The notes beneath the pieces were generated by a model. That model worked only from the letters and a program-made list of their open reading frames with translations. It had not been told where the DNA came from and made no database searches. Source: Bryoerythrophyllum caledonicum (taxonomy: Eukaryota > Streptophyta > Bryopsida > Pottiales > Pottiaceae). From it: a stretch of 64,000 nt of DNA. This document shows, piece by piece, positions 1 through 54,056 of this stretch. A program made the position numbers and the translations under genes. Within the stretch, counting starts at the first letter, position 1; every line of letters starts with the position of its first letter. The stretch is from assembly GCA_963971425.1 (NCBI GenBank), contig OZ020515.1:21324637-21388636 (forward strand), read 5' to 3'.

Positions 1-298
1 GCCGGTTCCGGGTTCGAGCTTTATCAAACTCGTTGAACGGCCTGGATAGTTGCAACTTGGTACTTGCTAGTGAAAGCAGGAAATAAGCAGCCAACCGGCC
101 ACCTACGCTTCCCTGAGCTACAGTGACAAGATGCAGGCTTCCAAGTTATGCTAACAAGCTCCGGTTACCCCCCCATTGAACCAAACCGTGGATTTCTCCA
201 CGACCCCAACCTTTTGTATCCTTCTCCTCATATTCTATCCGATGTCTAAGGCAACATCTTTAATATTTTCACACAATATATTAATTTACAACGCGACA
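1..298 (-). repeat. Partial LTR (5' part of U3 in element orientation)
   Basis: This stretch is nearly identical to the last 298 bp (plus-strand order) of every complete LTR in the window. It ends in GCGACA, which on the minus strand is the LTR start TGTCGC. The rest of this LTR lies to the left of the window, so at least one more unit or the array edge is there. Confidence 0.9.
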
Positions 299-315
299 TG
301 CACCCCCTCTAAACC
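299..315 (-). other. Polypurine tract
   Basis: On the minus strand the sequence before the 3' LTR is GGTTTAGAGGGGGTGCA, followed by TGTCGC of the LTR. The purine run AGAGGGGG (plus-strand 303-310) is the expected primer for plus-strand DNA synthesis. It sits four bases away from the inferred LTR start instead of touching it. The same tract occurs at 9259, 18219, 27178, 36137 and 45097 in the other copies. Confidence 0.7.
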
Positions 316-350
316 TGCACATCCTCTGGTATGTGCCAAGTTTAGCCTTC

Positions 351-3300
351 TTAATTTTCCTCCGCGCTTTGATTATCATTCTCTAACTCTTCCTCTGTTT
401 CTGGTTGAGTATCAGACGCATCAAAGTCATTGATTTCTAACCCTCCACCTCTTCTCCGAAACACTTTGATACGCTTGCCGGCCACAGGAATCCTTAATGG
501 AGTTCCATCCAATTCTCGTAGTGAGTAAGTAGCATTATTATGCACTTTGATCACCACGTAAGGTCCAAACCATCGCCTTGCAAACTTTCTGACTGTACTG
601 TGTTGATGCTCCAAAGTACTATCAAACACCAACACCCAGTCTCCTTCTTCAATCTTCCTCATTCTCAAACGGTGGGTTCTATCAAATCTTTCCTTGTTGC
701 CAAGCCTAGCAGCCTTGAGCCTTTCCAAAGCTTTTTGCATATGCTCGGGCAATCTTCCAAGCTGCTGAATGCGTAGCTCCAATAGTTTTTCTGTTGTAAC
801 ATTGTCTTCCCAAGATAGAAATACCCAGGTTGGAATAGATTCTTCTCCAGGCATTATAGGTTTGTGTCCATGCATAAGCTCAACCGGCATATAACCAGTG
901 ACTGTGCTATGTGTGGTTCTATCAGCCCATAGAGCAAACGGGAGCAATCTTGGCCAAAGGTTAGGCTTTCCTTTACAGGCCTTAACCAATGCGTGAATGA
1001 TAGGAGGATGACCTCTCTCAATCTTGCCATTGGCCTCCGGATTGTAAGCCGTTGTCAGCCTCAATTGCACCCCATATCTTTGGAAGAATTCTCGTGCTTC
1101 ACTAGCATCCAATTCTCCTCTATCTGCTCGCATTCGACCAATACTCCCATACCGACTGAAAATATCCTCGAGTATAAATCGGCAAATCCCTTCTGTCCCC
1201 TTGGTTCGCAAAGCCCTTCCTTCAACAAAATTTGAAAGTTCTTCTCTTGCCAATACAAGATATTTCATTCCCCAAATCCCAGGTGGCATCGCAACCAAAT
1301 CAATCATCCATTGAAAGTGAATGGAAGGAGGGTAAGTGGGATGCAGTTCATCTCTATGTCGGATCTTTGATTGCAGCTGACATGTAATACATGAAGCCAC
1401 AAACTCCTCAACGTCCTTGTATAAGCCCTTCCACCAATATCGTTCCTTGATTTTTGTGTAAGTGGCCCAAATCCCTCTGTGACCAGCCCAAAGTGCATCA
1501 TGAAATTCCTTGAGCACTTGTACTTTGGTCTCAAAATCACCCACTACTCTCAAAGGTAATTCATCAGCCCTCTTCCATAGGAATCCATTACGTAAAAGAT
1601 ATCCATAGGACTGTTGTCTGATGTCTTTGAAGGTCTTTTCAATCCATCCTTCTTGCCTCTTCAAAGTGCTCAAATAAAGTCCAATTTCTTTGAGCCTCCC
1701 TTCATATAACTCTTCTTTGAATGACAATATCTCATTCTTTGAACGTCCTCCATTTGTAGCCAACACATATGCTTCATCTGAGTGGTCCTCACTGTCTCCA
1801 TGAGCCATCATTTCTTCTTCGTGAAAGTATCTGGCTCTTGATAACATATCCGCCACAAGATTCTTCTTCCCAATAATGTGTACCAAAACTGGGTTCAAAG
1901 ATTTGATGTATGCTATCCATCGCAACATAGCAATGTCCGGTGAAGAGCAGTTGGCAATCATGCCAAGAAGAGGTAAGCAGTCAGTCTCTAATACAACATT
2001 TGCGCCAATCAAGTAGTTTCTGTCTGCTTTCAAAGCTGTTAGCGCACCCCAAAGCTCTCTCTTGACTTGTGGATATGCCCTTTGACGTTCCGTAAGGATC
2101 CTTGCTCCAAATCGGATAGCAAACCGATTCCCTTCTGCATCATCTTGGCCAATAGCCCATCCAATGGCTATAGGACTTGTATCAACTGTCACAATCACCG
2201 GTCTCTCACTCTTGTATTCCACTTGTTTTAGAACCGGTGGTGACTCTAAAATCTTCTTCAACTCCTCCATAGCCAAAGTTTGCTCTTGTTCCCAAAGAAA
2301 TTTGTTCCTCTTTCTCAAAAGTTTATAAAGAGGCTCGGATATATGAGCAAAATGAGGTATCCAAATTTGATAGAAGACACAAGCTCCTAGAAACCTCCTT
2401 ACTTCAGTGACATTGCTACAGGCTTTCATTCTGCCAATAGCATCCACTTTCTCAGGGTTAGGTTTCCGCCCAAATCTCCCACATAGATGTCCAACCACTA
2501 AGATTTCATCTACTCCAAACTTGGACTTGTCAATGGACAGAGTTAAATCCACCTCTTCAAGTCTGCTCAAGATCTTGTTTACATCACTGATATGCTCGTT
2601 TACAAATACTCTGCATCCATCGTCTTGAACAGTACAGTCTCTTCTTGCCTCCGCACAACCTTTTATAGGAATATCATCTACAAAAGGTATTGTTTTCTCA
2701 GGTATAAAGTCTCTCAGAATTTGATTCATAGCATTTTGCATATGTGCTACCGAATTAGTAGCACCTTGAGGCAATGTACACATTCGCACTAATCCAAGTG
2801 GAGTTTTCATGGTTGTCAGATCTCTACTCTCAGCTGCAAGCTGGAATTGATCATAACCAGAATATAGGTCTCCAATGGAATAAATAGCATGCCCCGCAAA
2901 TGCTTCTGCCACTTCATCAACAATAGGTCCAGATCCTTTGTTTCTGATCGTCACCTTGTTAGCTGGCTGCATATCTTGAATAAATCGCAATGCCCCAGAC
3001 TTTTTTGGTACGGTGAACCAACGATTGGAATATGGAGCCATCGAAGGCTCAAGTATCCCCATGTGTATCTTCTCCTTCAACAAATCAATCAATTTGGGAA
3101 GTAGTGCCCGTGGTACAGGTATTGGCTTCAAATCCCAAGGCACATGCGGCACAGTAAAAATAACCATCGGCGCAACCACACTTGGTTGTACACATCCAAT
3201 CTCATCTGGTGAAGAAGCAAAGGCCTTTCCATGCTTAGAGAGCATATCTTGGAACTTCTTCTTTTCTAGCTCCGTTAAGAATACATCCCCTCCAATTTTC

Positions 3301-3864
3301 AAATTTGTCAATGTTTCTTCTGTAAACTTGTGACCAATTGTCTTGGCCCCTCTCAAACTCGGTTCTCTCCCCGCTTGTCTGATGTGCTCATCCGTGTCAG
3401 ATGGTAATTGGGTCGCCACAGGTTTGACTTTCTTAGCCACTGTTTTGTACTTGGTGTTCACCATGGCCTCATATTTCAACCCATGGCTTTGACAAACACC
3501 AGCTTTTGCCACTACATGGCAAATTTCATCATACAATGCTTGTGTATGTATTTTGATTACAATATCAGAAGCATTGTTTCTCTCCCTACTAACTTGCAAG
3601 TTTTGTAAGACTTGCAAAACATCATCTGCAAAGCCTTGTTCCTCATAGACTCCAGAAATAGTCTCTTCATCTAAAAGTAAACTCACTCTTTTTTAGATTT
3701 TTCTCTATCTTTTTCACCACCCTTCTATGTACAGGTTCCAAATCTTCAACACATGTGAACCGCGAAAATCCATGCTCTGTAATACTTAAAAACCCACTTT
3801 TAATAGTATGTACAGTGGAGGGTCTTGAACTTTCAGATTCTTTTGCACCCGTGGACCTCCACAT
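351..3864 (-). CDS. pol: pol polyprotein, copy 1, broken by a 1-nt frame change near its N-terminus
   Basis: Reads from an ATG at 3864, 14 nt after the gag stop. After about 60 codons a run of six T at 3689-3694 (five in copies 3 and 4) shifts the frame and stops the first ORF at 3667. The remaining 1111 codons, which hold every catalytic domain, stay open from about 3686 to 351 but have no ATG near their start. In the intact numbering of copy 3, RT motifs, RNase H, the zinc-binding domain and integrase core follow in Ty3/gypsy order. The C-terminal acidic tail reads EELE here and in copy 2, but EESE in copies 3-6 (base 385). The break could be a replication slip in the homopolymer, a sequencing error, or a site rescued by slippage. 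I infer that this copy is probably non-functional. Confidence 0.9.
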
Positions 3865-3878
3865 TCCACGTGTGCTGT

Positions 3879-3942
3879 TTAGAAATCCGAAAAAGTATGA
3901 GAAGTAGGTAGAGGACCATCTCTGAGCTGGACACGGTGCCTC
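3879..3942 (-). promoter_or_regulatory. gag/pol frame overlap, candidate -1 frameshift zone
   Basis: The pol frame is offset by -1 from gag and is open for 64 nt before the gag TAA (3879-3881). The last stop in the pol frame is the TGA just above 3942. Within the overlap the minus strand reads ACT TTT TCG in the gag frame. The five-U run (plus 3890-3894) could allow -1 slippage, but it is not a perfect X-XXY-YYZ heptamer. An alternative is reinitiation at the pol ATG, 14 nt past the gag stop. The arrangement is the same in all six copies. Confidence 0.4.
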
Positions 3943-6563
3943 TCATTCTCAGATCTCACTGTCAAGAATTGCACGGATCTCTTGCCATCAAGACTTCGAA
4001 TTCGTGCATAGTGGGATCCATCATCCAATACTTTAGTCTCCATTCTTGATGCTGTAATATATGGTTGCCCCAAAATCACGGGATAAGCTCCCTGATTTTG
4101 GACAAAGAACTTTTGCTCCACTTCCACATCACCAATCTTTGCTGACACAGCAGGACAAGCTCCAAATAGATGTGTCCGCCCACTATTGGCTGCTCTCATC
4201 ACCCATCCATGGTTAGTGTCAATAGGCCATTTGCCTTTCTCATAGACACTTCGAGACATGATATTTATCTCAGAACCATGGTCTACGAGAGCCAAAATCG
4301 GATCATCCATCCCCCCAAGCTTCACACGCGTCTCGGTGGTGGCTCTAGCCCAACACGGTAGAAAATAATCCGATCTCTCTTCACCTTCTCTTTCCAAAGA
4401 ATGGACTATGCCGCATTTAAAGGTATTGGCTTCTATTATAGCCCTTCCCTCAAATGCTGCCACAATGTCCACCTTCTCCATCTTATTTTTCTTCTCTTCT
4501 AGAGGTCTTGGTGATTTGGTTGATTTCTTCAAGCCGTTCACCCCCTCTAACTCTCCATTTACCACATGATGGCATTCCAAAAGATTCTTTGATTTCGCAA
4601 AATCTTTCTTCTCACCAATGGTGTATCCTTTGGCAATCATGTGCAAAATCTCATCCTCCTCTTCATCAGTGAGACAAAGCTCTTCTTCTTCACCACCATC
4701 ATCATCTACCGCCCTTTTCTCCTTTGCCTCTGGCTCACACATCAAGGCAAATACTTGCCCAACCTCTTCCTCTTCATCTTCAGTCATGTGGGTGTCCAAA
4801 GCCTTCACCATGACTGTCTCAGCTGTCATCTGTCTCTTCCTCTTGATGACATCAATAATCAGCTCATGAAAATCCTTCTTGGCAATGCCAAGAGCTTCTC
4901 TGAGCGTGAATTCAATCTTGGCATCCAAGATTCTCTCTTCCAACACCCCCTTCATGTCAATGGAAGATTCAATATCAGATTTCAACTTATAAGCGGGTCC
5001 CTTTCCCTTGCCTTTGTTAGAATCTTCTTTTTCTTTGCCCTTCTTGTTGCCACTTGGTTCTCCCCACACTTTCTCAGGTAGTGGTGCATCTCTTGGGTGA
5101 ACAAATGAAGGTTTAGCAGGCCTTGAGCGTGTATGAACACCAGGCTTTTCTTCGTTGGCAACCTCTTTTGCACCTTGAGGCCTCTTCTTCTGTGCAGGCT
5201 CTTCAACATCACCTTCATCAGCAGCTCTACCTCTTTTTTCTTCCACAGAGGCTTCGTGTTGCTCATCATCACTTTGCACCTCACCCAAAAATGCTCTGAT
5301 GCTGATAGCATCCACTGGGTCTTCCCATCCGGTTGCCTTTCTTATGGCTTGAGCTCCTCTCTTCAATGTTTCAACACATGGAGTCAATTTGGCCTCAACC
5401 GGATGATAATCCACTCCAATGGCAAATGCCTCTGCACCTTGTACATGCATGCCACTTGATCTTCCAGATTTGTCCTCCATTAGCTTCTTCATTCCTCCTT
5501 TGCCAAAATTAGTGGGTACTGGCAAGTCGGTGGCCTTATCATGGATCTTTCCATCCTCGAAGTGCACAATGCCTTCCTTAAGAGCCACATCAAGAGACAT
5601 ACAACCACGAAGGTTGTGGTCTTCCTCTTCATCGCACCACAAGCACCTCCTCACAAATTTTCTCACACCATCAGATGATTGAGAAGAATTTGATGTTCGT
5701 GACTTCCGCAGCTCGTTCATTTCCACCCTCAACTCCTTGAAACCCTTGATAAGCTCATCGAGGGCACCTCCTTCAACAATTTTTGCAGCCTTTGAAGTAG
5801 ATGGCTCAGTTTTAGAGGACGCTGGAGTTTTTGAAAGCTTCTGAGCTGGAGCAACGGTTGCTTCAATTCGAGTGACAACGCCCCTAGACTTCACTCGCCG
5901 TTGTTTGGCAATAAGAGTGACAGTCTCTTCAATTCTCCTCCAGTCATTCGTGAAACCACCTTCAGTAGTTCGGTCACCCAAAAGTAGAAGCAGTCTATCT
6001 TCCAAAGCAGCATCTGCTGCTTGAAGAAACAACTCTGCCTTTCTAGTATCCAAAAGGCGTCTCTCTGCCATTGGCAGCTGGCTGTACTTCTTCTCAAAAT
6101 CACGCAACAACTCATTCGGCCCCATATCGTTTCCAGGTTGCTGCTCCACCCAATCCAAAAAAGACCTCTTGGTCATCCTCTCCGAATCTTCATCAAAGTA
6201 TTCATCTCGCAATCTTTCTTCAAAGATTGTCCAAGATGTCACAGCCTCATCTTCAATTATCTCGCGTATCCGTTCTCGAATCTCAGGTATCACAGCCAAG
6301 CCAAAGGTCTCAACCATGCGATTTTCTGGCACTTGATGAACCTCCATTTCGCAAAGATACACCCGTAGGAAGCTTGTGATGTTCTTCCCATCAAACCTTC
6401 CAATCTTGTCCACAATTCCTTTCAGAGCTTTCGTGGAACTCTGGCCACCAATCGGCTGTCCTCTCTGTTGCTCCATAAGCATCGCCAGAGCACCAAGAAG
6501 CCTCTCCATATTTGGTTGGGCTCCACCGGAACCATCACCAGTAGCACCTCCAGAATCACCCAT
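3879..6563 (-). CDS. gag: Gag-protease polyprotein, copy 1 (894 aa)
   Basis: The first ATG is at 6563, about 30 nt downstream of the primer binding site. The frame is open further upstream but has no ATG there. Residues 1-230 look like a retrotransposon capsid region, with FDGKNITSFL near residue 57 and a helical stretch ending in SFLDWVEQQ. A zinc knuckle at about 307-321 is C-X2-C-X5-H-X4-C, one residue longer than the usual CCHC. A long Lys/Glu-rich linker with acidic runs follows. The aspartic protease domain is at the C-terminus: the active-site motif is LVDHGSE (Asp about 761), where DSG or DTG is usual, and VILGQP near 829-834 fits the end of the fold. Gag packages the RNA and the protease matures the polyproteins in cytoplasmic particles. 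The ORF is intact in this copy. Confidence 0.93.
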   Translation of the reverse strand: MGDSGGATGDGSGGAQPNMERLLGALAMLMEQQRGQPIGGQSSTKALKGIVDKIGRFDGKNITSFLRVYLCEMEVHQVPENRMVETFGLAVIPEIRERIREIIEDEAVTSWTIFEERLRDEYFDEDSERMTKRSFLDWVEQQPGNDMGPNELLRDFEKKYSQLPMAERRLLDTRKAELFLQAADAALEDRLLLLLGDRTTEGGFTNDWRRIEETVTLIAKQRRVKSRGVVTRIEATVAPAQKLSKTPASSKTEPSTSKAAKIVEGGALDELIKGFKELRVEMNELRKSRTSNSSQSSDGVRKFVRRCLWCDEEEDHNLRGCMSLDVALKEGIVHFEDGKIHDKATDLPVPTNFGKGGMKKLMEDKSGRSSGMHVQGAEAFAIGVDYHPVEAKLTPCVETLKRGAQAIRKATGWEDPVDAISIRAFLGEVQSDDEQHEASVEEKRGRAADEGDVEEPAQKKRPQGAKEVANEEKPGVHTRSRPAKPSFVHPRDAPLPEKVWGEPSGNKKGKEKEDSNKGKGKGPAYKLKSDIESSIDMKGVLEERILDAKIEFTLREALGIAKKDFHELIIDVIKRKRQMTAETVMVKALDTHMTEDEEEEVGQVFALMCEPEAKEKRAVDDDGGEEEELCLTDEEEDEILHMIAKGYTIGEKKDFAKSKNLLECHHVVNGELEGVNGLKKSTKSPRPLEEKKNKMEKVDIVAAFEGRAIIEANTFKCGIVHSLEREGEERSDYFLPCWARATTETRVKLGGMDDPILALVDHGSEINIMSRSVYEKGKWPIDTNHGWVMRAANSGRTHLFGACPAVSAKIGDVEVEQKFFVQNQGAYPVILGQPYITASRMETKVLDDGSHYARIRSLDGKRSVQFLTVRSENERHRVQLRDGPLPTSHTFSDF

Positions 6564-6594
6564 TGTCCTCAACAAAGCTAGCAGCCCCAAAGCG

Positions 6595-6612
6595 CTCTCA
6601 GTGGAAGCACCA
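6595..6612 (-). other. Primer binding site (PBS)
   Basis: The minus strand reads TGGTGCTTCCACTGAGAG, two bases inside the LTR end CGACA. Its complement ends in CCA like a mature tRNA 3' end, as required for minus-strand priming. I could not assign the tRNA species. Similar TTTGGTGCTT-type leaders are, from memory, found in some plant gypsy elements. Other copies are at 15555-15572, 24514-24531, 33473-33490, 42433-42450 and 51393-51410. The PBS sits only about 30 nt before the gag ATG. Confidence 0.7.
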
Positions 6613-7030
6613 AATGTCGAGTAGCGAGAGTTTTTCTTTGGGAAATCGCGGAGATCCTAGCTGCTGCTAAAAATTGTTTGAGAACAAAGATTGTCTCCAA
6701 ATAAATCTCTAGTCTTGACCACCAGATCTTCTTGTCTTCAAATTTTTAATCTTGAATCTTCAATCTTGAATCTTCAAACTCCTCCCCGTTGGCCTATCCT
6801 GTGGTGGCTCTAAAGGGTTAAGGGTAAGGGTAGGTGATAAGAAACCACGGCCTCGGACGGGTAAAACGGGACGGCCAAACCACGAGCTGACCGTCCGAAA
6901 GATTGGCTCCTAAACTTCAAACCCACGGTGACCAGCAATCGCGCCTTACCGGTGGGAACAACATAAACACGACCGTGTGGGCCATTAACCCCACTTCGCC
7001 GCAACAAAGTTTACGAAGCAGAATTGAAAA

Positions 7031-7170
7031 ACAACTAGCCTCCAAAACCGGCTGGGAATAACAAATAAAAACAACGAGCCTCCAAAGCCGGCTAGGAATA
7101 ACAAGCAACACGCGAGTCTTCTAGTCTTCTTATCTTCAAGTCTTCATGTCTTCTTATCTTCAAGTCTTGA
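7031..7170 (-). repeat. Short direct repeats and CT-rich stretch in the LTR
   Basis: Two copies of a 40-bp unit containing CCTCCAAA(A/G)CCGGCT(G/A)GGAATAACAA start near 7031 and 7071. A CT-rich block follows at about 7118-7170, with TCTTCTTATCTTCAAGTCTT repeated twice. The same block is in every LTR. On the transcribed strand this gives a GA-rich leader segment between the LTR ORF and gag. Function unknown. Confidence 0.6.
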
Positions 7171-7234
7171 AGTGTTCAAAAACACAAAAGACCTCCCAAA
7201 GTTCTTGTCCACACTAGCTGCGAGCTTCCGATCG

Positions 7235-7790
7235 ATGCCACAGATGATTTGAGCCGCCAAATGCCAAGTGCTATAGTTTTTTGGAAAGCTGGTGCAATAA
7301 GCTAATACCCTCCAAAATCTCAAGTTATTCTAAACTACCTTCTAAAAGTTATGGAGGTTCAAAGTTTGTGCCTTCTTATGTCGATGGCAGCAAACCCTCT
7401 CCAACTTCGGCGGCTATAACTTCTATATTACTATTCTAAATGAGCCGTATAATAGCTTTATAGAAAGCTAATTTAATAAGCTACAACTCCTCTAAATTTC
7501 ACTTCAAACTAATCTACTCACTAAAAGTTGTGTAAGCTTAAAACTCACGCCTCCCCACTTCCAAGACGGCAGAACTCTCCTCTACTTAGATGGCTATAAC
7601 TTTTTCATAGCGCATCTATATGAGTCGAGTGATAGCTTCTTAGAAAGCTAATACAATGAGGAATGCTTCTCTCAAATTTCAAGTCCGAACACAAAGTATC
7701 GAAGCCGTGGTGAAGGCCCGAAGTTGCTGCTCCTCTAATTGGGTAGCGGCCAACTACTCCTTACTCAATCTCTCATAACTTTTGCGTATG
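7235..7790 (-). repeat. Diverged tandem repeat of about 180 bp inside the LTR
   Basis: Matching landmarks recur at 180-190 bp spacing. TGAG(C/T)CG followed by a TAGCTT/GAAAGCTAA block occurs near 7250, 7441 and 7621. The (GG)CTATAACTT landmark occurs near 7412, 7592 and, as CTCATAACTT, 7772. Three to four units are recognisable and well diverged from each other, so the internal duplication is much older than the tandem array. The block is repeated in every LTR. Confidence 0.65.
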
Positions 7791-8238
7791 AACTCCAAAT
7801 TGAACAAAAACACCGCTCAAAGAAGCGCAACTTCACAAGGAACAACTTCACAAACTTTCATAACATTCTCATGAAAAACGAGTACACACCGCCCGATCTC
7901 CTTCTCGGGAATTTTCTCACAGCACTCTCTACACACCAAAAAAACACACCAAGAGGAAAGGAGAGTCGCCCCTTATCCTTCCACATCAGCCCATGCCTAA
8001 GCCACATGGGCATCTAAAGCCTATTGGTTAACCTCCAAAAGCACTCTAAAGTCTATCAAGATAAGATAGGAAAGAAACCCCAACCATTGGGCTTCAAAAG
8101 GTGTGGTTCCAAAAGAATTCTAAGACGGTCAAACTTTTTCTTAGTTTCTTTTCTTTTTCTTTCTTGGATCTTGATCTAATGTAAACATAAACATATAACA
8201 AACTCCTATATTAACAACTAAATGGATTCTACCTTCAT

Positions 8239-8661
8239 CTAACCATATAAAAACTCTAGAATTTGACGGAGTACCGCTGAAACATAACTTGCTCTCCGTT
8301 CATCGTTTAAAAAGGTCAGCGGCCCTCGAAGCCAAAGACGGTGGCCCATCTCATTAGAAAAGCGACTCACCATTTGGCCTTCATTGGTATTTTCAAAACA
8401 CCCTTCAAACACCATCTGACGGCCACCCGTCAATGAAGCTTCAGCCTCCAATACAATCACTAGAACTTTCGCGTCCGGTTGTAGATTCACAAATGCAAGT
8501 TGCCGTAGACTTGGATCTGGACGTGGTTGAACACGACGCTCGGAAGGCCCCGCTTCATCTCGCACTCGCCGTCTGGAAGTTGATGGCTGAGAAGATTGAA
8601 ACGGATCCTCCGGTAATTGCAATAACGACAACTCCCACTCATCTGGGTCTTGAGAATCCAT
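8239..8661 (-). CDS. LTR-encoded ORF, copy 1, 140 aa, unknown function
   Basis: Starts at an ATG (8661) in good context (A at -3, G at +4), about 70 bp downstream of a TATA box, so it should be the first ORF of the element's transcript. Residues 1-50 are polar and probably disordered, with acidic, Ser/Gln/Pro and Arg-rich parts (STSRRRVRDEAGPSERR). Residues 53-140 look foldable: hydrophobic strands (KVLVIVLEAEA), FEGCFENTNEGQ, HRLWLRGPLTFL, and a C-terminal helix ending LRQILEFLYG. There is no signal peptide, membrane segment or zinc motif. I do not recognise the family. It lies in R-U5, upstream of the PBS, where retrotransposons normally have no gene. The reading frame is intact in five of six copies. 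Residue 14 is Leu here (Ser in copies 2, 3 and 6). Confidence 0.6.
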   Translation of the reverse strand: MDSQDPDEWELSLLQLPEDPFQSSQPSTSRRRVRDEAGPSERRVQPRPDPSLRQLAFVNLQPDAKVLVIVLEAEASLTGGRQMVFEGCFENTNEGQMVSRFSNEMGHRLWLRGPLTFLNDERRASYVSAVLRQILEFLYG

Positions 8662-8728
8662 ACTATCAACTCTAAGCTATCCAAGCTATTGGCTTGAAGC
8701 AAATCATGTGAGGCAAAGAAACTATCTT

Positions 8729-8740
8729 CCTTTTTATATC
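8729..8740 (-). promoter_or_regulatory. TATA box of the LTR promoter
   Basis: The minus strand reads GATATAAAAAGG, a strong RNA polymerase II TATA element. It lies about 520 nt into the LTR and about 70 nt upstream of the LTR ORF ATG. Transcription would be expected to start near 8700. The same site is at 17689-17700, 26648-26659, 35607-35618, 44567-44578 and 53527-53538. Confidence 0.65.
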
Positions 8741-9310
8741 TCTCAGTAACTTCTTTAAGAAGCTTGCCTTCACTGAATTACTCAAATAGCCATAAATAAT
8801 TCTATTTTAACTAAAAGTAGTCCGCATCAAAAGATCTGGCTAAAGGACAAGGTCGCGACATTGTACAGTCCCTCAACAGTTGTATAAAGCCACCTTGAGT
8901 CCACTAATGGTCGCCAAGTTGCGGACTTGGTTGGCTGTCAAGGTCCGTCGATTGTTGCCTGCCGGTTCCGGGTTCGAGCTTTATCAAACTCGTTGAACGG
9001 CCTGGATAGTTGCAACTTGGTACTTGCTAGTGAAAGCAGGAAATAAGCAGCCAACCGGCCACCTACGCTTCCCTGAGCTACAGTGACAAGATGCAGGCTT
9101 CCAAGTTATGCTAACAAGCTCCGGTTACCCCCCCATTGAACCAAACCGTGGATTTCTCCACGACCCCAACCTTTTGTATCTTTCTCCTCATATTCTATCC
9201 GATGTCTAAGGCAACATCTTTAATATTTTCACACAATATATTAATTTACAACGCGACATGCACCCCCTCTAAACCTGCACATCCTCTGGTATGTGCCAAG
9301 TTTAGCCTTC

Positions 9311-42401: not shown

Positions 42402-42452
42402 TGTCCTCAACAAAGCTAGCAGCCCCAAAGCGCTCTCAGTGGAAGCACCAAA

Positions 42453-45096
42453 TGTCGAGTAGCGAGAGTTTTTCTTTGGGAAATCGCGGAGATCCTAGCT
42501 GCTGCTAAAAATTGTTTGAGAACAAAGATTGTCTCCAAATAAATCTCTAGTCTTGACCACCAGATCTTCTTGTCTTCAAATTTTTAATCTTCATTCTTCA
42601 ATCTTCAATCTTCAAACTCCTCCCCGTTGGCCTATCCTGTGGTGGCTCTAAAGGGTTAAGGGTAAGGGTAGGTGATAAGAAACCACGGCCTCGGACGGGT
42701 AAAACGGGACGGCCAAACCACGAGCTGACCGTCCGAAAGATTGGCTCCTAAACTTCAAACCCACGGTGACCAGCAATCGCGCCTTACCGGTGGGAACAAC
42801 ATAAACACGACCGTGTGGGCCATTAACCCCACTTCGCCGCAACAAAGTTTACGAAGCAGAATTGAAAAACAACTAGCCTCCAAAACCGGCTGGGAATAAC
42901 AAATAAAAACAACGAGCCTCCAAAGCCGGCTAGGAATAACAAGCAACACGCGAGTCTTCTAGTCTTCTTATCTTCAAGTCTTCATGTCTTCTTATCTTCA
43001 AGTCTTGAAGTGTTCAAAAACACAAAAGACCTCCCAAAGTTCTTGTCCACACTAGCTGCGAGCTTCCGATCGATGCCACAGATGATTTGAGCCGCCAAAT
43101 GCCAAGTGCTAAAGTTTTTTGGAAAGCTGGTGCAATAAGCTAATACCCTCCAAAATCTCAGGTTATTCTAAACTACCTTCTAAAAGTTATGGAGGTTCAA
43201 AGTTTGTGCCTTCTTATGTCGATGGCAGCAAACCCTCTCCAACTTCGGCGGCTATAACTTCTATATTACTATTCTAAATGAGCCGTATAATAGCTTTATA
43301 GAAAGCTAATTTAATAAGCTACAACTCCTCTAAATTTCACTTCAAACTAATCTACTCACTAAAAGTTGTGTAAGCTTAAAACTCACGCCTCCCCACTTCC
43401 AAGACGGCAGAACTCTCCTCTACTTAGATGGCTATAACTTTTTCATAGCGCATCTATATGAGTCGAGTGATAGCTTCTTAGAAAGCTAATACAATGAGGA
43501 ATGCTTCTCTCAAATTTCAAGTCCGAACACAAAGTATCGAAGCCGTGGTGAAGGCCCGAAGTTGCTGCTCCTCTAATTGGGTAGCGGCCAACTACTCCTT
43601 ACTCAATCTCTCATAACTTTTGCGTATGAACTCCAAATTGAACAAAAACACCGCTCAAAGAAGCGCAACTTCACAAGGAACAACTTCACAAACTTTCATA
43701 ACATTCTCATGAAAAACGAGTACACACCGCCCGATCTCCTTCTCGGGAATTTTCTCACAGCACTCTCTACACACCAAAAAAACACACCAAGAGGAAAGGA
43801 GAGTCGCCCCTTATCCTTCCACATCAGCCCATGCCTAAGCCACATGGGCATCTAAAGCCTATTGGTTAACCTCCAAAAGCACTCTAAAGTCTATCAAGAT
43901 AAGATAGGAAAGAAACCCCAACCATTGGGCTTCAAAAGGTGTGGTTCCAAAAGAATTCTAAGACGGTCAAACTTTTTCTTAGTTTCTTTTCTTTTTCTTT
44001 CTTGGATCTTGATCTAATGTAAACATAAACATATAACAAACTCCTATATTAACAACTAAATGGATTCTACCTTCATCTAACCATATAAAAACTCTAGAAT
44101 TTGACGGAGTACCGCTGAAACATAACTTGCTCTCCGTTCATCGTTTAAAAAGGTCAGCGGCCCTCGAAGCCAAAGACGGTGGCCCATCTCATTAGAAAAG
44201 CGACTCACCATTTGGCCTTCATTGGTATTTTCAAAACACCCTTCAAACACCATCTGACGGCCACCCGTCAATGAAGCTTCAGCCTCCAATACAATCACTA
44301 GAACTTTCGCGTCCGGTTGTAGATTCACAAATGCAAGTTGCCGTAGACTTGGATCTGGACGTGGTTGAACACGACGCTCGGAAGGCCCCGCTTCATCTCG
44401 CACTCGCCGTCTGGAAGTTGATGGCTGAGAAGATTGAAACGGATCCTCCGGTAATTGCAATAACGACAACTCCCACTCATCTGGGTCTTGAGAATCCATA
44501 CTATCAACTCTAAGCTATCCAAGCTATTGGCTTGAAGCAAATCATGTGAGGCAAAGAAACTATCTTCCTTTTTATATCTCTCAGTAACTTCTTTAAGAAG
44601 CTTGCCTTCACTGAATTACTCAAATAGCCATAAATAATTCTATTTTAACTAAAAGTAGTCCGCATCAAAAGATCTGGCTAAAGGACAAGGTCGCGACATT
44701 GTACAGTCCCTCAACAGTTGTATAAAGCCACCTTGAGTCCACTAATGGTCGCCAAGTTGCGGACTTGGTTGGCTGTCAAGGTCCGTCGATTGTTGCCTGC
44801 CGGTTCCGGGTTCGAGCTTTATCAAACTCGTTGAACGGCCTGGATAGTTGCAACTTGGTACTTGCTAGTGAAAGCAGGAAATAAGCAGCCAACCGGCCAC
44901 CTACGCTTCCCTGAGCTACAGTGACAAGATGCAGGCTTCCAAGTTATGCTAACAAGCTCCGGTTACCCCCCCATTGAACCAAACCGTGGATTTCTCCACG
45001 ACCCCAACCTTTTGTATCCTTCTCCTCATATTCTATCCGATGTCTAAGGCAACATCTTTAATATTTTCACACAATATATTAATTTACAACGCGACA
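42453..45096 (-). repeat. LTR 5 (2644 bp), between copies 5 and 6
   Basis: Same ends and layout as LTR 1. It has G at the 7323-equivalent site, A at the 8621-equivalent site, and a private T-to-A change at 43112. Confidence 0.88.
44077..44499 (-). CDS. LTR-encoded ORF, copy 5, 140 aa, unknown function
   Basis: Intact. Leu at residue 14, identical to copy 1. Confidence 0.6.
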   Translation of the reverse strand: MDSQDPDEWELSLLQLPEDPFQSSQPSTSRRRVRDEAGPSERRVQPRPDPSLRQLAFVNLQPDAKVLVIVLEAEASLTGGRQMVFEGCFENTNEGQMVSRFSNEMGHRLWLRGPLTFLNDERRASYVSAVLRQILEFLYG

Positions 45097-45148
45097 TGCA
45101 CCCCCTCTAAACCTGCACATCCTCTGGTATGTGCCAAGTTTAGCCTTC

Positions 45149-48100
45149 TTAATTTTCCTCCGCGCTTTGATTATCATTCTCTGACTCTTCCTCTGTTTCT
45201 GGTTGAGTATCAGACGCATCAAAGTCATTGATTTCTAACCCTCCACCTCTTCTCCGAAACACTTTGATACGCTTGCCGGCCACAGGAATCCTTAATGGAG
45301 TTCCATCCAATTCTCGTAGTGAGTAAGTAGCATTATTATGCACTTTGATCACCACGTAAGGTCCAAACCATCGCCTTGCAAACTTTCTGACTGTACTGTG
45401 TTGATGCTCCAAAGTACTATCAAACACCAACACCCAGTCTCCTTCTTCAATCTTCCTCATTCTCAAACGGTGGGTTCTATCAAATCTTTCCTTGTTGCCA
45501 AGCCTAGCAGCCTTGAGCCTTTCCAAAGCTTTTTGCATATGCTCGGGCAATCTTCCAAGCTGCTGAATGCGTAGCTCCAATAGTTTTTCTGTTGTAACAT
45601 TGTCTTCCCAAGATAGAAATACCCAGGTTGGAATAGATTCTTCTCCAGGCATTATAGGTTTGTGTCCATGCATAAGCTCAACCGGCATATAACCAGTGAC
45701 TGTGCTATGTGTGGTTCTATCAGCCCATAGAGCAAACGGGAGCAATCTTGGCCAAAGGTTAGGCTTTCCTTTACAGGCCTTAACCAATGCGTGAATGATA
45801 GGAGGATGACCTCTCTCAATCTTGCCATTGGCCTCCGGATTGTAAGCCGTTGTCAGCCTCAATTGCACCCCATATCTTTGGAAGAATTCTCGTGCTTCAC
45901 TAGCATCCAATTCTCCTCTATCTGCTCGCATTCGACCAATACTCCCATACCGACTGAAAATATCCTCGAGTATAAATCGGCAAATCCCTTCTGTCCCCTT
46001 GGTTCGCAAAGCCCTTCCTTCAACAAAATTTGAAAGTTCTTCTCTTGCCAATACAAGATATTTCATTCCCCAAATCCCAGGTGGCATCGCAACCAAATCA
46101 ATCATCCATTGAAAGTGAATGGAAGGAGGGTAAGTGGGATGCAGTTCATCTCTATGTCGGATCTTTGATTGCAGCTGACATGTAATACATGAAGCCACAA
46201 ACTCCTCAACGTCCTTGTATAAGCCCTTCCACCAATATCGTTCCTTGATTTTTGTGTAAGTGGCCCAAATCCCTCTGTGACCAGCCCAAAGTGCATCATG
46301 AAATTCCTTGAGCACTTGTACTTTGGTCTCAAAATCACCCACTACTCTCAAAGGTAATTCATCAGCCCTCTTCCATAGGAATCCATTACGTAAAAGATAT
46401 CCATAGGACTGTTGTCTGATGTCTTTGAAGGTCTTTTCAATCCATCCTTCTTGCCTCTTCAAAGTGCTCAAATAAAGTCCAATTTCTTTGAGCCTCCCTT
46501 CATATAACTCTTCTTTGAATGACAATATCTCATTCTTTGAACGTCCTCCATTTGTAGCCAACACATATGCTTCATCTGAGTGGTCCTCACTGTCTCCATG
46601 AGCCATCATTTCTTCTTCGTGAAAGTATCTGGCTCTTGATAACATATCCGCCACAAGATTCTTCTTCCCAATAATGTGTACCAAAACTGGGTTCAAAGAT
46701 TTGATGTATGCTATCCATCGCAACATAGCAATGTCCGGTGAAGAGCAGTTGGCAATCATGCCAAGAAGAGGTAAGCAGTCAGTCTCTAATACAACATTTG
46801 CGCCAATCAAGTAGTTTCTGTCTGCTTTCAAAGCTGTTAGCGCACCCCAAAGCTCTCTCTTGACTTGTGGATATGCCCTTTGACGTTCCGTAAGGATCCT
46901 TGCTCCAAATCGGATAGCAAACCGATTCCCTTCTGCATCATCTTGGCCAATAGCCCATCCAATGGCTATAGGACTTGTATCAACTGTCACAATCACCGGT
47001 CTCTCACTCTTGTATTCCACTTGTTTTAGAACCGGTGGTGACTCTAAAATCTTCTTCAACTCCTCCATAGCCAAAGTTTGCTCTTGTTCCCAAAGAAATT
47101 TGTTCCTCTTTCTCAAAAGTTTATAAAGAGGCTCGGATATATGAGCAAAATGAGGTATCCAAATTTGATAGAAGACACAAGCTCCTAGAAACCTCCTTAC
47201 TTCAGTGACATTGCTACAGGCTTTCATTCTGCCAATAGCATCCACTTTCTCAGGGTTAGGTTTCCGCCCAAATCTCCCACATAGATGTCCAACCACTAAG
47301 ATTTCATCTACTCCAAACTTGGACTTGTCAATGGACAGAGTTAAATCCACCTCTTCAAGTCTGCTCAAGATCTTGTTTACATCACTGATATGCTCGTTTA
47401 CAAATACTCTGCATCCATCGTCTTGAACAGTACAGTCTCTTCTTGCCTCCGCACAACCTTTTATAGGAATATCATCTACAAAAGGTATTGTTTTCTCAGG
47501 TATAAAGTCTCTCAGAATTTGATTCATAGCATTTTGCATATGTGCTACCGAATTAGTAGCACCTTGAGGCAATGTACACATTCGCACTAATCCAAGTGGA
47601 GTTTTCATGGTTGTCAGATCTCTACTCTCAGCTGCAAGCTGGAATTGATCATAACCAGAATATAGGTCTCCAATGGAATAAATAGCATGCCCCGCAAATG
47701 CTTCTGCCACTTCATCAACAATAGGTCCAGATCCTTTGTTTCTGATCGTCACCTTGTTAGCTGGCTGCATATCTTGAATAAATCGCAATGCCCCAGACTT
47801 TTTTGGTACGGTGAACCAACGATTGGAATATGGAGCCATCGAAGGCTCAAGTATCCCCATGTGTATCTTCTCCTTCAACAAATCAATCAATTTGGGAAGT
47901 AGTGCCCGTGGTACAGGTATTGGCTTCAAATCCCAAGGCACATGCGGCACAGTAAAAATAACCATCGGCGCAACCACACTTGGTTGTACACATCCAATCT
48001 CATCTGGTGAAGAAGCAAAGGCCTTTCCATGCTTAGAGAGCATATCTTGGAACTTCTTCTTTTCTAGCTCCGTTAAGAATACATCCCCTCCAATTTTCAA

Positions 48101-48662
48101 ATTTGTCAATGTTTCTTCTGTAAACTTGTGACCAATTGTCTTGGCCCCTCTCAAACTCGGTTCTCTCCCCGCTTGTCTGATGTGCTCATCCGTGTCAGAT
48201 GGTAATTGGGTCGCCACAGGTTTGACTTTCTTAGCCACTGTTTTGTACTTGGTGTTCACCATGGCCTCATATTTCAACCCATGGCTTTGACAAACACCAG
48301 CTTTTGCCACTACATGGCAAATTTCATCATACAATGCTTGTGTATGTATTTTGATTACAATATCAGAAGCATTGTTTCTCTCCCTACTAACTTGCAAGTT
48401 TTGTAAGACTTGCAAAACATCATCTGCAAAGCCTTGTTCCTCATAGACTCCAGAAATAGTCTCTTCATCTAAAAGTAAACTCACTCTTTTTTAGATTTTT
48501 CTCTATCTTTTTCACCACCCTTCTATGTACAGGTTCCAAATCTTCAACACATGTGAACCGCGAAAATCCATGCTCTGTAATACTTAAAAACCCACTTTTA
48601 ATAGTATGTACAGTGGAGGGTCTTGAACTTTCAGATTCTTTTGCACCCGTGGACCTCCACAT
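45149..48662 (-). CDS. pol: pol polyprotein, copy 6, 1-nt frame break
   Basis: Six-T form, as in copies 1, 2 and 5. The 65-codon ATG-started frame (48465-48662) is out of frame with the 1111-codon catalytic part. Protein sequence is identical to copy 5, including the EESE tail. Confidence 0.9.
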
Positions 48663-48676
48663 TCCACGTGTGCTGT

Positions 48677-51361
48677 TTAGAAATCCGAAAAAGTATGAGA
48701 AGTAGGTAGAGGACCATCTCTGAGCTGGACACGGTGCCTCTCATTCTCAGATCTCACTGTCAAGAATTGCACGGATCTCTTGCCATCAAGACTTCGAATT
48801 CGTGCATAGTGGGATCCATCATCCAATACTTTAGTCTCCATTCTTGATGCTGTAATATATGGTTGCCCCAAAATCACGGGATAAGCTCCCTGATTTTGGA
48901 CAAAGAACTTTTGCTCCACTTCCACATCACCAATCTTTGCTGACACAGCAGGACAAGCTCCAAATAGATGTGTCCGCCCACTATTGGCTGCTCTCATCAC
49001 CCATCCATGGTTAGTGTCAATAGGCCATTTGCCTTTCTCATAGACACTTCGAGACATGATATTTATCTCAGAACCATGGTCTACGAGAGCCAAAATCGGA
49101 TCATCCATCCCCCCAAGCTTCACACGCGTCTCGGTGGTGGCTCTAGCCCAACACGGTAGAAAATAATCCGATCTCTCTTCACCTTCTCTTTCCAAAGAAT
49201 GGACTATGCCGCATTTAAAGGTATTGGCTTCTATTATAGCCCTTCCCTCAAATGCTGCCACAATGTCCACCTTCTCCATCTTATTTTTCTTCTCTTCTAG
49301 AGGTCTTGGTGATTTGGTTGATTTCTTCAAGCCGTTCACCCCCTCTAACTCTCCATTTACCACATGATGGCATTCCAAAAGATTCTTTGATTTCGCAAAA
49401 TCTTTCTTCTCACCAATGGTGTATCCTTTGGCAATCATGTGCAAAATCTCATCCTCCTCTTCATCAGTGAGACAAAGCTCTTCTTCTTCACCACCATCAT
49501 CATCTACCGCCCTTTTCTCCTTTGCCTCTGGCTCACACATCAAGGCAAATACTTGCCCAACCTCTTCCTCTTCATCTTCAGTCATGTGGGTGTCCAAAGC
49601 CTTCACCATGACTGTCTCAGCTGTCATCTGTCTCTTCCTCTTGATGACATCAATAATCAGCTCATGAAAATCCTTCTTGGCAATGCCAAGAGCTTCTCTG
49701 AGCGTGAATTCAATCTTGGCATCCAAGATTCTCTCTTCCAACACCCCCTTCATGTCAATGGAAGATTCAATATCAGATTTCAACTTATAAGCGGGTCCCT
49801 TTCCCTTGCCTTTGTTAGAATCTTCTTTTTCTTTGCCCTTCTTGTTGCCACTTGGTTCTCCCCACACTTTCTCAGGTAGTGGTGCATCTCTTGGGTGAAC
49901 AAATGAAGGTTTAGCAGGCCTTGAGCGTGTATGAACACCAGGCTTTTCTTCGTTGGCAACCTCTTTTGCACCTTGAGGCCTCTTCTTCTGTGCAGGCTCT
50001 TCAACATCACCTTCATCAGCAGCTCTACCTCTTTTTTCTTCCACAGAGGCTTCGTGTTGCTCATCATCACTTTGCACCTCACCCAAAAATGCTCTGATGC
50101 TGATAGCATCCACTGGGTCTTCCCATCCGGTTGCCTTTCTTATGGCTTGAGCTCCTCTCTTCAATGTTTCAACACATGGAGTCAATTTGGCCTCAACCGG
50201 ATGATAATCCACTCCAATGGCAAATGCCTCTGCACCTTGTACATGCATGCCACTTGATCTTCCAGATTTGTCCTCCATTAGCTTCTTCATTCCTCCTTTG
50301 CCAAAATTAGTGGGTACTGGCAAGTCGGTGGCCTTATCATGGATCTTTCCATCCTCGAAGTGCACAATGCCTTCCTTAAGAGCCACATCAAGAGACATAC
50401 AACCACGAAGGTTGTGGTCTTCCTCTTCATCGCACCACAAGCACCTCCTCACAAATTTTCTCACACCATCAGATGATTGAGAAGAATTTGATGTTCGTGA
50501 CTTCCGCAGCTCGTTCATTTCCACCCTCAACTCCTTGAAACCCTTGATAAGCTCATCGAGGGCACCTCCTTCAACAATTTTTGCAGCCTTTGAAGTAGAT
50601 GGCTCAGTTTTAGAGGACGCTGGAGTTTTTGAAAGCTTCTGAGCTGGAGCAACGGTTGCTTCAATTCGAGTGACAACGCCCCTAGACTTCACTCGCCGTT
50701 GTTTGGCAATAAGAGTGACAGTCTCTTCAATTCTCCTCCAGTCATTCGTGAAACCACCTTCAGTAGTTCGGTCACCCAAAAGTAGAAGCAGTCTATCTTC
50801 CAAAGCAGCATCTGCTGCTTGAAGAAACAACTCTGCCTTTCTAGTATCCAAAAGGCGTCTCTCTGCCATTGGCAGCTGGCTGTACTTCTTCTCAAAATCA
50901 CGCAACAACTCATTCGGCCCCATATCGTTTCCAGGTTGCTGCTCCACCCAATCCAAAAAAGACCTCTTGGTCATCCTCTCCGAATCTTCATCAAAGTATT
51001 CATCTCGCAATCTTTCTTCAAAGATTGTCCAAGATGTCACAGCCTCATCTTCAATTATCTCGCGTATCCGTTCTCGAATCTCAGGTATCACAGCCAAGCC
51101 AAAGGTCTCAACCATGCGATTTTCTGGCACTTGATGAACCTCCATTTCGCAAAGATACACCCGTAGGAAGCTTGTGATGTTCTTCCCATCAAACCTTCCA
51201 ATCTTGTCCACAATTCCTTTCAGAGCTTTCGTGGAACTCTGGCCACCAATCGGCTGTCCTCTCTGTTGCTCCATAAGCATCGCCAGAGCACCAAGAAGCC
51301 TCTCCATATTTGGTTGGGCTCCACCGGAACCATCACCAGTAGCACCTCCAGAATCACCCAT
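48677..51361 (-). CDS. gag: Gag-protease polyprotein, copy 6 (894 aa)
   Basis: Intact from the ATG at 51361, with the same protein sequence as copies 1 and 5. It belongs to the last full unit before the right edge of the array, so in element sense it is the most upstream unit. Confidence 0.93.
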   Translation of the reverse strand: MGDSGGATGDGSGGAQPNMERLLGALAMLMEQQRGQPIGGQSSTKALKGIVDKIGRFDGKNITSFLRVYLCEMEVHQVPENRMVETFGLAVIPEIRERIREIIEDEAVTSWTIFEERLRDEYFDEDSERMTKRSFLDWVEQQPGNDMGPNELLRDFEKKYSQLPMAERRLLDTRKAELFLQAADAALEDRLLLLLGDRTTEGGFTNDWRRIEETVTLIAKQRRVKSRGVVTRIEATVAPAQKLSKTPASSKTEPSTSKAAKIVEGGALDELIKGFKELRVEMNELRKSRTSNSSQSSDGVRKFVRRCLWCDEEEDHNLRGCMSLDVALKEGIVHFEDGKIHDKATDLPVPTNFGKGGMKKLMEDKSGRSSGMHVQGAEAFAIGVDYHPVEAKLTPCVETLKRGAQAIRKATGWEDPVDAISIRAFLGEVQSDDEQHEASVEEKRGRAADEGDVEEPAQKKRPQGAKEVANEEKPGVHTRSRPAKPSFVHPRDAPLPEKVWGEPSGNKKGKEKEDSNKGKGKGPAYKLKSDIESSIDMKGVLEERILDAKIEFTLREALGIAKKDFHELIIDVIKRKRQMTAETVMVKALDTHMTEDEEEEVGQVFALMCEPEAKEKRAVDDDGGEEEELCLTDEEEDEILHMIAKGYTIGEKKDFAKSKNLLECHHVVNGELEGVNGLKKSTKSPRPLEEKKNKMEKVDIVAAFEGRAIIEANTFKCGIVHSLEREGEERSDYFLPCWARATTETRVKLGGMDDPILALVDHGSEINIMSRSVYEKGKWPIDTNHGWVMRAANSGRTHLFGACPAVSAKIGDVEVEQKFFVQNQGAYPVILGQPYITASRMETKVLDDGSHYARIRSLDGKRSVQFLTVRSENERHRVQLRDGPLPTSHTFSDF

Positions 51362-51412
51362 TGTCCTCAACAAAGCTAGCAGCCCCAAAGCGCTCTCAGT
51401 GGAAGCACCAAA

Positions 51413-54056
51413 TGTCGAGTAGCGAGAGTTTTTCTTTGGGAAATCGCGGAGATCCTAGCTGCTGCTAAAAATTGTTTGAGAACAAAGATTGTCTCCAAAT
51501 AAATCTCTAGTCTTGACCACCAGATCTTCTTGTCTTCAAATTTTTAATCTTCATTCTTCAATCTTCAATCTTCAAACTCCTCCCCGTTGGCCTATCCTGT
51601 GGTGGCTCTAAAGGGTTAAGGGTAAGGGTAGGTGATAAGAAACCACGGCCTCGGACGGGTAAAACGGGACGGCCAAACCACGAGCTGACCGTCCGAAAGA
51701 TTGGCTCCTAAACTTCAAACCCACGGTGACCAGCAATCGCGCCTTACCGGTGGGAACAACATAAACACGACCGTGTGGGCCATTAACCCCACTTCGCCGC
51801 AACAAAGTTTACGAAGCAGAATTGAAAAACAACTAGCCTCCAAAACCGGCTGGGAATAACAAATAAAAACAACGAGCCTCCAAAGCCGGCTAGGAATAAC
51901 AAGCAACACGCGAGTCTTCTAGTCTTCTTATCTTCAAGTCTTCATGTCTTCTTATCTTCAAGTCTTGAAGTGTTCAAAAACACAAAAGACCTCCCAAAGT
52001 TCTTGTCCACACTAGCTGCGAGCTTCCGATCGATGCCACAGATGATTTGAGCCGCCAAATGCCAAGTGCTATAGTTTTTTGGAAAGCTGGTGCAATAAGC
52101 TAATACCCTCCAAAATCTCAGGTTATTCTAAACTACCTTCTAAAAGTTATGGAGGTTCAAAGTTTGTGCCTTCTTATGTCGATGGCAGCAAACCCTCTCC
52201 AACTTCGGCGGCTATAACTTCTATATTACTATTCTAAATGAGCCGTATAATAGCTTTATAGAAAGCTAATTTAATAAGCTACAACTCCTCTAAATTTCAC
52301 TTCAAACTAATCTACTCACTAAAAGTTGTGTAAGCTTAAAACTCACGCCTCCCCACTTCCAAGACGGCAGAACTCTCCTCTACTTAGATGGCTATAACTT
52401 TTTCATAGCGCATCTATATGAGTCGAGTGATAGCTTCTTAGAAAGCTAATACAATGAGGAATGCTTCTCTCAAATTTCAAGTCCGAACACAAAGTATCGA
52501 AGCCGTGGTGAAGGCCCGAAGTTGCTGCTCCTCTAATTGGGTAGCGGCCAACTACTCCTTACTCAATCTCTCATAACTTTTGCGTATGAACTCCAAATTG
52601 AACAAAAACACCGCTCAAAGAAGCGCAACTTCACAAGGAACAACTTCACAAACTTTCATAACATTCTCATGAAAAACGAGTACACACCGCCCGATCTCCT
52701 TCTCGGGAATTTTCTCACAGCACTCTCTACACACCAAAAAAACACACCAAGAGGAAAGGAGAGTCGCCCCTTATCCTTCCACATCAGCCCATGCCTAAGC
52801 CACATGGGCATCTAAAGCCTATTGGTTAACCTCCAAAAGCACTCTAAAGTCTATCAAGATAAGATAGGAAAGAAACCCCAACCATTGGGCTTCAAAAGGT
52901 GTGGTTCCAAAAGAATTCTAAGACGGTCAAACTTTTTCTTAGTTTCTTTTCTTTTTCTTTCTTGGATCTTGATCTAATGTAAACATAAACATATAACAAA
53001 CTCCTATATTAACAACTAAATGGATTCTACCTTCATCTAACCATATAAAAACTCTAGAATTTGACGGAGTACCGCTGAAACATAACTTGCTCTCCGTTCA
53101 TCGTTTAAAAAGGTCAGCGGCCCTCGAAGCCAAAGACGGTGGCCCATCTCATTAGAAAAGCGACTCACCATTTGGCCTTCATTGGTATTTTCAAAACACC
53201 CTTCAAACACCATCTGACGGCCACCCGTCAATGAAGCTTCAGCCTCCAATACAATCACTAGAACTTTCGCGTCCGGTTGTAGATTCACAAATGCAAGTTG
53301 CCGTAGACTTGGATCTGGACGTGGTTGAACACGACGCTCGGAAGGCCCCGCTTCATCTCGCACTCGCCGTCTGGAAGTTGATGGCTGAGAAGATTGAAAC
53401 GGATCCTCCGGTAATTGCGATAACGACAACTCCCACTCATCTGGGTCTTGAGAATCCATACTATCAACTCTAAGCTATCCAAGCTATTGGCTTGAAGCAA
53501 ATCATGTGAGGCAAAGAAACTATCTTCCTTTTTATATCTCTCAGTAACTTCTTTAAGAAGCTTGCCTTCACTGAATTACTCAAATAGCCATAAATAATTC
53601 TATTTTAACTAAAAGTAGTCCGCATCAAAAGATCTGGCTAAAGGACAAGGTCGCGACATTGTACAGTCCCTCAACAGTTGTATAAAGCCACCTTGAGTCC
53701 ACTAATGGTCGCCAAGTTGCGGACTTGGTTGGCTGTCAAGGTCCGTCGATTGTTGCCTGCCGGTTCCGGGTTCGAGCTTTATCAAACTCGTTGAACGACC
53801 TGGATAGTTGCAACTTGGTACTTGCTAGTGAAAGCAGGAAATAAGCAGCCAACCGGCCACCTACGCTTCCCTGAGCTACAGTGACAAGATGCAGGCTTCC
53901 AAGTTATGCTAACAAGCTCCGGTTACCCCCCCATTGAACCAAACCGTGGATTTCTCCACGACCCCAACCTTTTGTATCCTTCTCCTCATATTCTATCCGA
54001 TGTCTAAGGCAACATCTTTAATATTTTCACACAATATATTAATTTACAACGCGACA
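51413..54056 (-). repeat. LTR 6 (2644 bp), outer LTR at the right edge of the array
   Basis: Complete LTR whose minus-strand start TGTCGC lies at 54056 against non-array DNA. In all other LTRs the plus-strand sequence after GCGACA is TGCACCCC; here it is CCGGTTGTGG. This gives an independent fix of the LTR boundary. It has G at the 7323- and 8621-equivalent sites and a private G-to-A at 53798. If this edge is an insertion end, the target-site duplication would be CCGGT (54057-54061), to be matched at the unseen left edge. Confidence 0.9.
53037..53459 (-). CDS. LTR-encoded ORF, copy 6, 140 aa, unknown function
   Basis: Intact. Ser at residue 14, as in copies 2 and 3. This copy lies in the outermost LTR, whose promoter would drive the first unit of the array. 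Confidence 0.6.
   Translation of the reverse strand: MDSQDPDEWELSLSQLPEDPFQSSQPSTSRRRVRDEAGPSERRVQPRPDPSLRQLAFVNLQPDAKVLVIVLEAEASLTGGRQMVFEGCFENTNEGQMVSRFSNEMGHRLWLRGPLTFLNDERRASYVSAVLRQILEFLYG

Follow-up and report, generated by a model that had tools for sequence, protein, structure and literature searches.

A tandem array of Ty3/Gypsy retrotransposons with shared LTRs derives from one insertion and probably grew in place

Introduction

In the origin of satellite DNA, the passage from dispersed transposon to tandem repeat is a step still to be explained. The locus described here raises this question in a concrete form: how does a row of near-identical retrotransposons come to occupy a single site? 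The window, i.e., the whole stretch of 64,000 nucleotides that was analysed (C2:21324637-21388636, in an assembly of 437 Mb and 894 contigs), is filled from base 1 to base 54056 by a tandem array that illustrates a mobile element turning satellite-like. Single-LTR tandem arrays are already known, and this one is a strong further example. In rice and other plants, tandem LTR retrotransposons alternate LTRs with internal regions, have an LTR at both ends and are mostly Gypsy elements; the excerpts of the rice study cited here leave their origin undecided between the insertion of a concatemer and recombination in place (PMC11899658).

Results

The array and its insertion site

An earlier note had proposed a chain of retrotransposons with shared LTRs at this locus. 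The chain is real, with the period and the LTR length as claimed; the successive periods are 8960, 8960, 8959, 8959, 8960 and 8960 bp. Reading 100 kb to the left of the window and 40 kb to its right placed the array at window coordinates -2345 to 54056 (C2:21322291-21378692). The left edge, just beyond the window at -2345, falls precisely on an LTR end, and the array hence comprises seven LTRs and six internal regions of a Ty3/Gypsy element, 56,402 bp on the minus strand. The "at least six" elements of the note stand as six internal regions and can be sharpened to exactly six, with seven LTRs, in this assembly, on which the number rests. All seven LTRs are 2644 bp long and the six internal regions 6315-6316 bp, which gives n internal regions and n+1 LTRs (6 and 7), with an LTR at both ends. 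The features are listed below, with units numbered from the 5' end, i.e., from right to left in the window.

51413..54056, minus strand: LTR1, the 5' outer LTR (2644 bp), with ends TGTCG...CGACA and with C at LTR position 638
45097..51412, minus strand: internal region 1, with gag-like ORF 48677-51388 and pol ORF 45149-48484 (domains taken from the matching ORFs of other units)
42453..45096, minus strand: LTR2, shared, array-private T at LTR position 638
36137..42452, minus strand: internal region 2, 0 differences from region 1
33493..36136, minus strand: LTR3, shared, T at 638
27178..33492, minus strand: internal region 3, gag-like frame broken, three variants in common with region 4
24534..27177, minus strand: LTR4, shared, C at 638
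18219..24533, minus strand: internal region 4, with pol ORF 18271-21783 (1170 aa)
15575..18218, minus strand: LTR5, shared, C at 638 and T at 1936
9259..15574, minus strand: internal region 5
6615..9258, minus strand: LTR6, shared, T at 638 and T at 1936
299..6614, minus strand: internal region 6, with gag-like ORF 3879-6590 (DUF4100) and pol ORF 351-3686
1..298, minus strand: LTR7, the 3' outer LTR, truncated by the start of the window and continuing to -2345, T at 638
54057..54060, no strand: 4-bp target duplication CCGG, right copy (the left one lies at -2349..-2346)
54061..57198, no strand: host repeat, the insertion target of the element, resuming left of the array to about -4361
57199..64000, no strand: 127-bp tandem block inside the host repeat, continuing to about 65237

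The left flank of the array reads ...CCACCGG and the right flank CCGGTTGTGG, and all three of the host-repeat copies without the insertion that were checked (empty sites) read CCACCGGTTGTGG. Since both flanks carry CCGG and the empty sites read as they do, the target duplication around the whole array is 4 bp, CCGG, and not the 5-bp CCGGT once proposed, and the array traces to one insertion. A matching duplication at both outer edges, which had been suggested as a test, is thus found at -2349..-2346 and 54057..54060. The array derives from one insertion and was expanded later. Nested or repeated insertions are ruled out, since all joints are exact to the LTR and no extra bases separate the units. 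In the 100 kb to the left of the window, we found one further repeat pair of LTR size, which is not tandem.

Three other copies of the host repeat are about 93% identical to that of the window. The 127-bp repeat spans 57199-65237, about 8 kb in the window copy, and had been taken for a true satellite next to the array. All three other copies contain 1.0-1.26 kb of it at the equivalent place, and up to 2 kb past the block (67302-69311) are also common to the host-repeat copies. The matching place in three copies and the shared stretch beyond indicate an internal block of the host repeat that was expanded here. An independent satellite beside the array is rejected accordingly, as the 127-bp repeat belongs to the dispersed host repeat. 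The window copy lacks about 1.1 kb at 54967-54979 that is present in the three other copies compared (C6 and C2). It also has an inverted repeat at 56694-56928, near the 127-bp block, seen as an opposite-strand self-match and possibly part of the terminal structure of the host repeat. A 470-aa ORF in the C6 copy has zero Pfam matches.

Coding capacity and class of the element

The LTRs read TGTCG...CGACA, with a putative primer site, TTTGGTGCTTCCACTGAG, directly inside and a putative purine-rich tract at the other end of the internal region, ending AGAGGGGGTGCA. Both were named by eye; a tRNA scan with bacterial settings gave nothing useful. Each unit carries, on the minus strand and within the internal region, a gag-like ORF and a pol ORF. 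The pol frame (1111 or 1170 aa) is open in all six units and the gag-like frame (903 aa) in five of the six. Pfam matches in pol occur in the order RVT_1 (285-459), RT_RNaseH (552-653), H2C2 (781-831) and rve (851-942, scoring below the curated cut-off), and the best match among solved structures is Ty3 Gag-Pol (7q5b, E 1.6e-51). By this predicted order of reverse transcriptase, RNase H and integrase, the element is a Ty3/Gypsy (Metaviridae) LTR retrotransposon. The terminal features of Metaviridae are found as well: TG...CA LTR ends, the putative primer site and purine tract, and the 4-bp duplication.

The first ORF matches DUF4100 (E 1.5e-9), which we take to be a fungal family, and has a weak match to gag-asp_proteas (E 0.048, under the cut-off). 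No chromodomain, as expected of a chromovirus, was found at E values up to 1 with HMMER filters that drop most weak matches; the C terminus of pol gave a weak SH3_Tf2-1 match alone. The LTRs contain short TCTTCA-like repeats (window positions 6748-6777, 7115-7179, 15686-15737 and their repeats), which also occur near position 1761 in the LTRs of a related family on C6, some of which have lost a 7-bp copy.

Variants between the units

The six units differ at 18 aligned columns, one of them a 1-bp indel; ten lie in LTRs and eight in internal regions. Internal regions 3 and 4 have three variants in common. They alone carry G at internal position 139 (A at all seven other places read, in six loci), their A at position 3049 recurs in the two units of the C14 array (18 of the 22 matches have G), and their homopolymer at 2921 is one base shorter than in the other four regions. 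One variant is common to internal regions 5 and 6, and another to LTR5 and LTR6. LTR position 638 shows a different distribution, with T in LTR2, LTR3, LTR6 and LTR7 and C in LTR1, LTR4 and LTR5. Among the 100 of 109 genome-wide matches listed, all 93 other LTRs have C at this site, and T is confined to the window array. The remaining twelve variable columns, which make ten events when three close columns in LTR6 are taken as one, are private to one unit.

The array has multi-unit variants that are absent from the other copies checked. The mixing of 638 T among the LTRs favours unequal LTR-LTR exchange in place, with conversion, over a ready-made concatemer, and the mutation appears to postdate the insertion and to have spread within the array.

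Other arrays in the genome

A search for the junction between LTR end and primer site, allowing up to 3 mismatches, gave 262 places (control, 0). Of the 100 of these listed, 55 belong to ten chains and the other 45 are isolated; close matches and contigs with low numbers are over-represented among them, and these shares are therefore not genome-wide. The ten chains among the matches listed have 6 (window), 6, 5, 6, 18, 4, 3, 2 and 2 units, plus an irregular group of 3; the 5-unit chain contains one double-length gap. Hence a chain of this kind does not stand out as exceptional in this genome: there are at least ten, one of them of 18 units. The irregular three-junction group sits at C6:24026605, other chains lie at C447 and C10:6016346, and the chain at C2:34.4 has a 16-kb gap.

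The longest array among the matches listed, at C6:19707660-19853628, has 18 units of 8005 bp over 146 kb, GCGG on both sides and outer LTRs of 1893 and 1886 bp. Its family is related to that of the window (67-74% identity in two pieces compared with the internal region of the window), and an array on C3, with a unit of 8610 bp, represents a third family. We read the edges of eight arrays from these three families: those of the window, C9, C11 and C14; those of C6 and two on C2; and that of C3. All eight end at LTR ends. The match of the outer duplications also extends to them: it is perfect over 4 bp at seven of the eight, and the eighth (C2:32.0 Mb) has CCAG/CCGG, three of four bases.

We compared 900 bp of each unit of the 18-unit array. 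Two C-to-T changes, at positions 92 and 118, are common to units 3 and 4 and are absent from all ten other places read (eight loci, two arrays being read twice). A G-to-T change at position 296 occurs in units 5, 8, 9, 13, 14 and 15, and T is found there in one of the ten other places. Over 900 bp x 18 there are zero base substitutions limited to a single unit; the sole private difference is the loss of a 7-bp repeat in unit 7. Shared variants sit in adjacent units more often than in a random order (p about 0.006 for four variant sets, about 0.009 when the LTR 638 set is added, in a post hoc test).

Solo LTRs and two-LTR elements

For the window family, 100 of the 109 LTR matches were listed and resolve into 74 loci, of which 60 have a single LTR, 9 are two-LTR elements and 5 are arrays of 2 to 6 units. 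Among these listed matches, 17 of the 26 internal regions so counted fall in arrays. The LTR match was exact over 29 bases, so that a partner LTR altered there escapes detection, and a fraction of the one-LTR loci may in fact be larger. Ten one-LTR loci, all plus-strand and hand-chosen, were sampled. Both LTR ends were present in eight, five of which have a perfect 4-bp duplication; the other three comprise one with ACGG/ATGG and two without a duplication. In the two loci left of the ten, one end is missing within the stretch read. We read both expected edges of seven of the nine stand-alone elements whose junction match is exact, omitting two on short contigs. Both edges and a perfect 4-bp duplication are present in six; the seventh has the 5' edge only, with LTRs 8085 bp apart. 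Unequal LTR exchange is expected to yield two products, solo LTRs and expanded arrays.

Discussion

How the array may have grown

We consider that the array probably arose by a single insertion followed by growth in place, through unequal LTR-LTR exchange with conversion. On this view, a single insertion placed a Ty3/Gypsy element with two LTRs at a CCGG site within another repeat. Its long, near-identical LTRs could then mispair on sister chromatids or homologues, and crossing-over within an LTR would add one or a few units per exchange, each new unit sharing an LTR with its neighbour. The reciprocal product of each exchange would be a shorter array or a solo LTR, and ongoing exchange and conversion would spread new mutations among the units. 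One insertion, exact edges and shared LTRs are what the locus displays; a like architecture recurs at other loci, and solo LTRs of the same family have intact duplications. Three further steps belong to this account: we infer that the shared variants arose after the insertion, that the exchange was presumably crossing-over and not the reintegration of circles excised from that array, and that unequal exchange likewise produced the initial duplication.

Some observations weigh against growth in place. Position 638 is a CpG, where recurrent C-to-T change is easier, and nine of the 109 matches were unlisted. In the window array, ten variants occur in one unit each, which would be equally expected of a static array. 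Furthermore, if the array was built otherwise, variants could still have spread among its units by conversion without crossing-over.

Among the mechanisms raised in the earlier note, the best fit is expansion by unequal LTR-LTR exchange, and a single burst making all units is at odds with the shared variants. Rolling-circle amplification is possible as a contributor. The periodic pattern expected of one multi-unit rolling-circle burst was not seen in the 18-unit array, where the 296 variant was inspected by eye.

A concatemer could also have been made beforehand, by rolling-circle copying of a one-LTR circle, from a read-through multimeric RNA or by joining of cDNAs, and inserted whole by integrase. 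This would likewise yield LTR-exact edges and one target duplication, it suits near-identical units with many variants private to one of them, and the option is kept for rice in the excerpts cited (PMC11899658). We nevertheless find it unlikely. Independent mutation of such units predicts private variants only, whereas here several units share variants, both in runs and apart. A concatemer of mixed sources requires a donor with T at 638, and there is none in the 93 other LTRs among the 100 of 109 matches listed.

In another scenario, cDNAs or one-LTR circles from other copies recombined homologously into a resident LTR, which would preserve the outer duplication and the shared-LTR layout and has a precedent in yeast, as cited in the excerpts of PMC11899658. 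The A at 3049 is also in the C14 array and the T at 296 of the C6 family at one of ten places elsewhere; hence, some input from other copies is possible. As a full explanation it seems quite improbable, given that the lineage markers (T at 638, G at 139, and T at 92 and 118 in the C6 array) are absent from the other copies checked.

Finally, near-identical units of about 9 kb are hard to assemble from short reads or from reads shorter than the array, yet an assembly artefact that multiplied one element or miscounted the units is very improbable, since 18 aligned columns, one of them a 1-bp indel, distinguish the units, and eight arrays of three families all end in LTRs, with perfect duplications in seven cases and three of four bases in one.

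An LTR variant unseen in the other LTRs among the matches listed, and present in separated LTRs of the array, is direct evidence of in-place turnover of a full-length coding element. Moreover, arrays of 2, 3, 4, 6 and 18 units, together with solo LTRs of the same family, provide a series for measuring rates of growth and loss.

Comparison with known systems

The tandems of rice are among the closest in description. In the excerpts of PMC11899658, they have a target duplication and, at one of two loci, near-identical units, and one locus occurs in solo, single and tandem states; a rice locus with a stated unit number has two internal regions and three LTRs, whereas the arrays described here have 6 and up to 18 units and shared array-private variants. 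Cassandra/TRIM arrays of plants are also alike, with an LTR-internal-LTR-internal order, shared LTRs and up to 12 repeats, according to the parts of PMC7215508 used here. In contrast to the small, non-coding Cassandra, the units of the window are full-length, with pol open in six of six and the gag-like frame in five. Tandems of a centromeric retroelement in kangaroos, likened by their description as cited in the same excerpts of PMC11899658, have shared internal LTRs and a recombination model.

Yeast Ty elements form tandems by integrase-independent recombination (cited in the excerpts of PMC11899658), and the pol of the window is nearest to Ty3 among solved structures. Unlike what is described for Ty, the window units share variants absent from the other copies checked, a pattern that speaks for expansion at the locus over repeated uptake of cDNA from elsewhere. 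The parts of the rust-fungus literature covered (including PMC10067951) held nothing on such arrays. A search of titles and abstract openings found no fungal array with many full-length units, which is no proof of absence from print. A paper on LTR-bearing circular DNAs of Magnaporthe (PMC9694575) is a possible lead there.

Integration sites

All 18 perfect duplications read have the form NCGN: those of seven arrays, six stand-alone elements and five solo LTRs. CpG has a background of 2.95% per position in 199,701 bases. Apparently, this Gypsy group prefers CpG-centred integration sites. Gypsy families of Drosophila also make mostly 4-bp duplications, at sites that are palindromic but AT-rich, as reported in the portion of PMC3276498 used here. 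On CpG-centred targets, our search of titles and abstract openings gave nothing clearly on topic. It is conceivable, though we say so tentatively, that the long LTRs of the group are recombination hotspots, with arrays of up to 18 full units and solo LTRs, in place of two-LTR elements, as their usual state and the arrays of coding elements as self-homogenising macrosatellites, and that the integrase is aimed at NCGN.

The imperfect duplications CCAG/CCGG and ACGG/ATGG are compatible with a lost CpG. Two loci have non-matching flanks, C3:19511221 (TCAA/TCGT) and the one-LTR locus C3:5877216 (ACGT/AACC). At the latter there is no direct duplication, and a 10-bp piece of the left flank reappears three bases past the LTR. 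In the fifteen sites of arrays and stand-alone elements, with C2:32.0 represented by its right copy and C10:19127064 by its 5' copy, the first base is never T and the last is never A.
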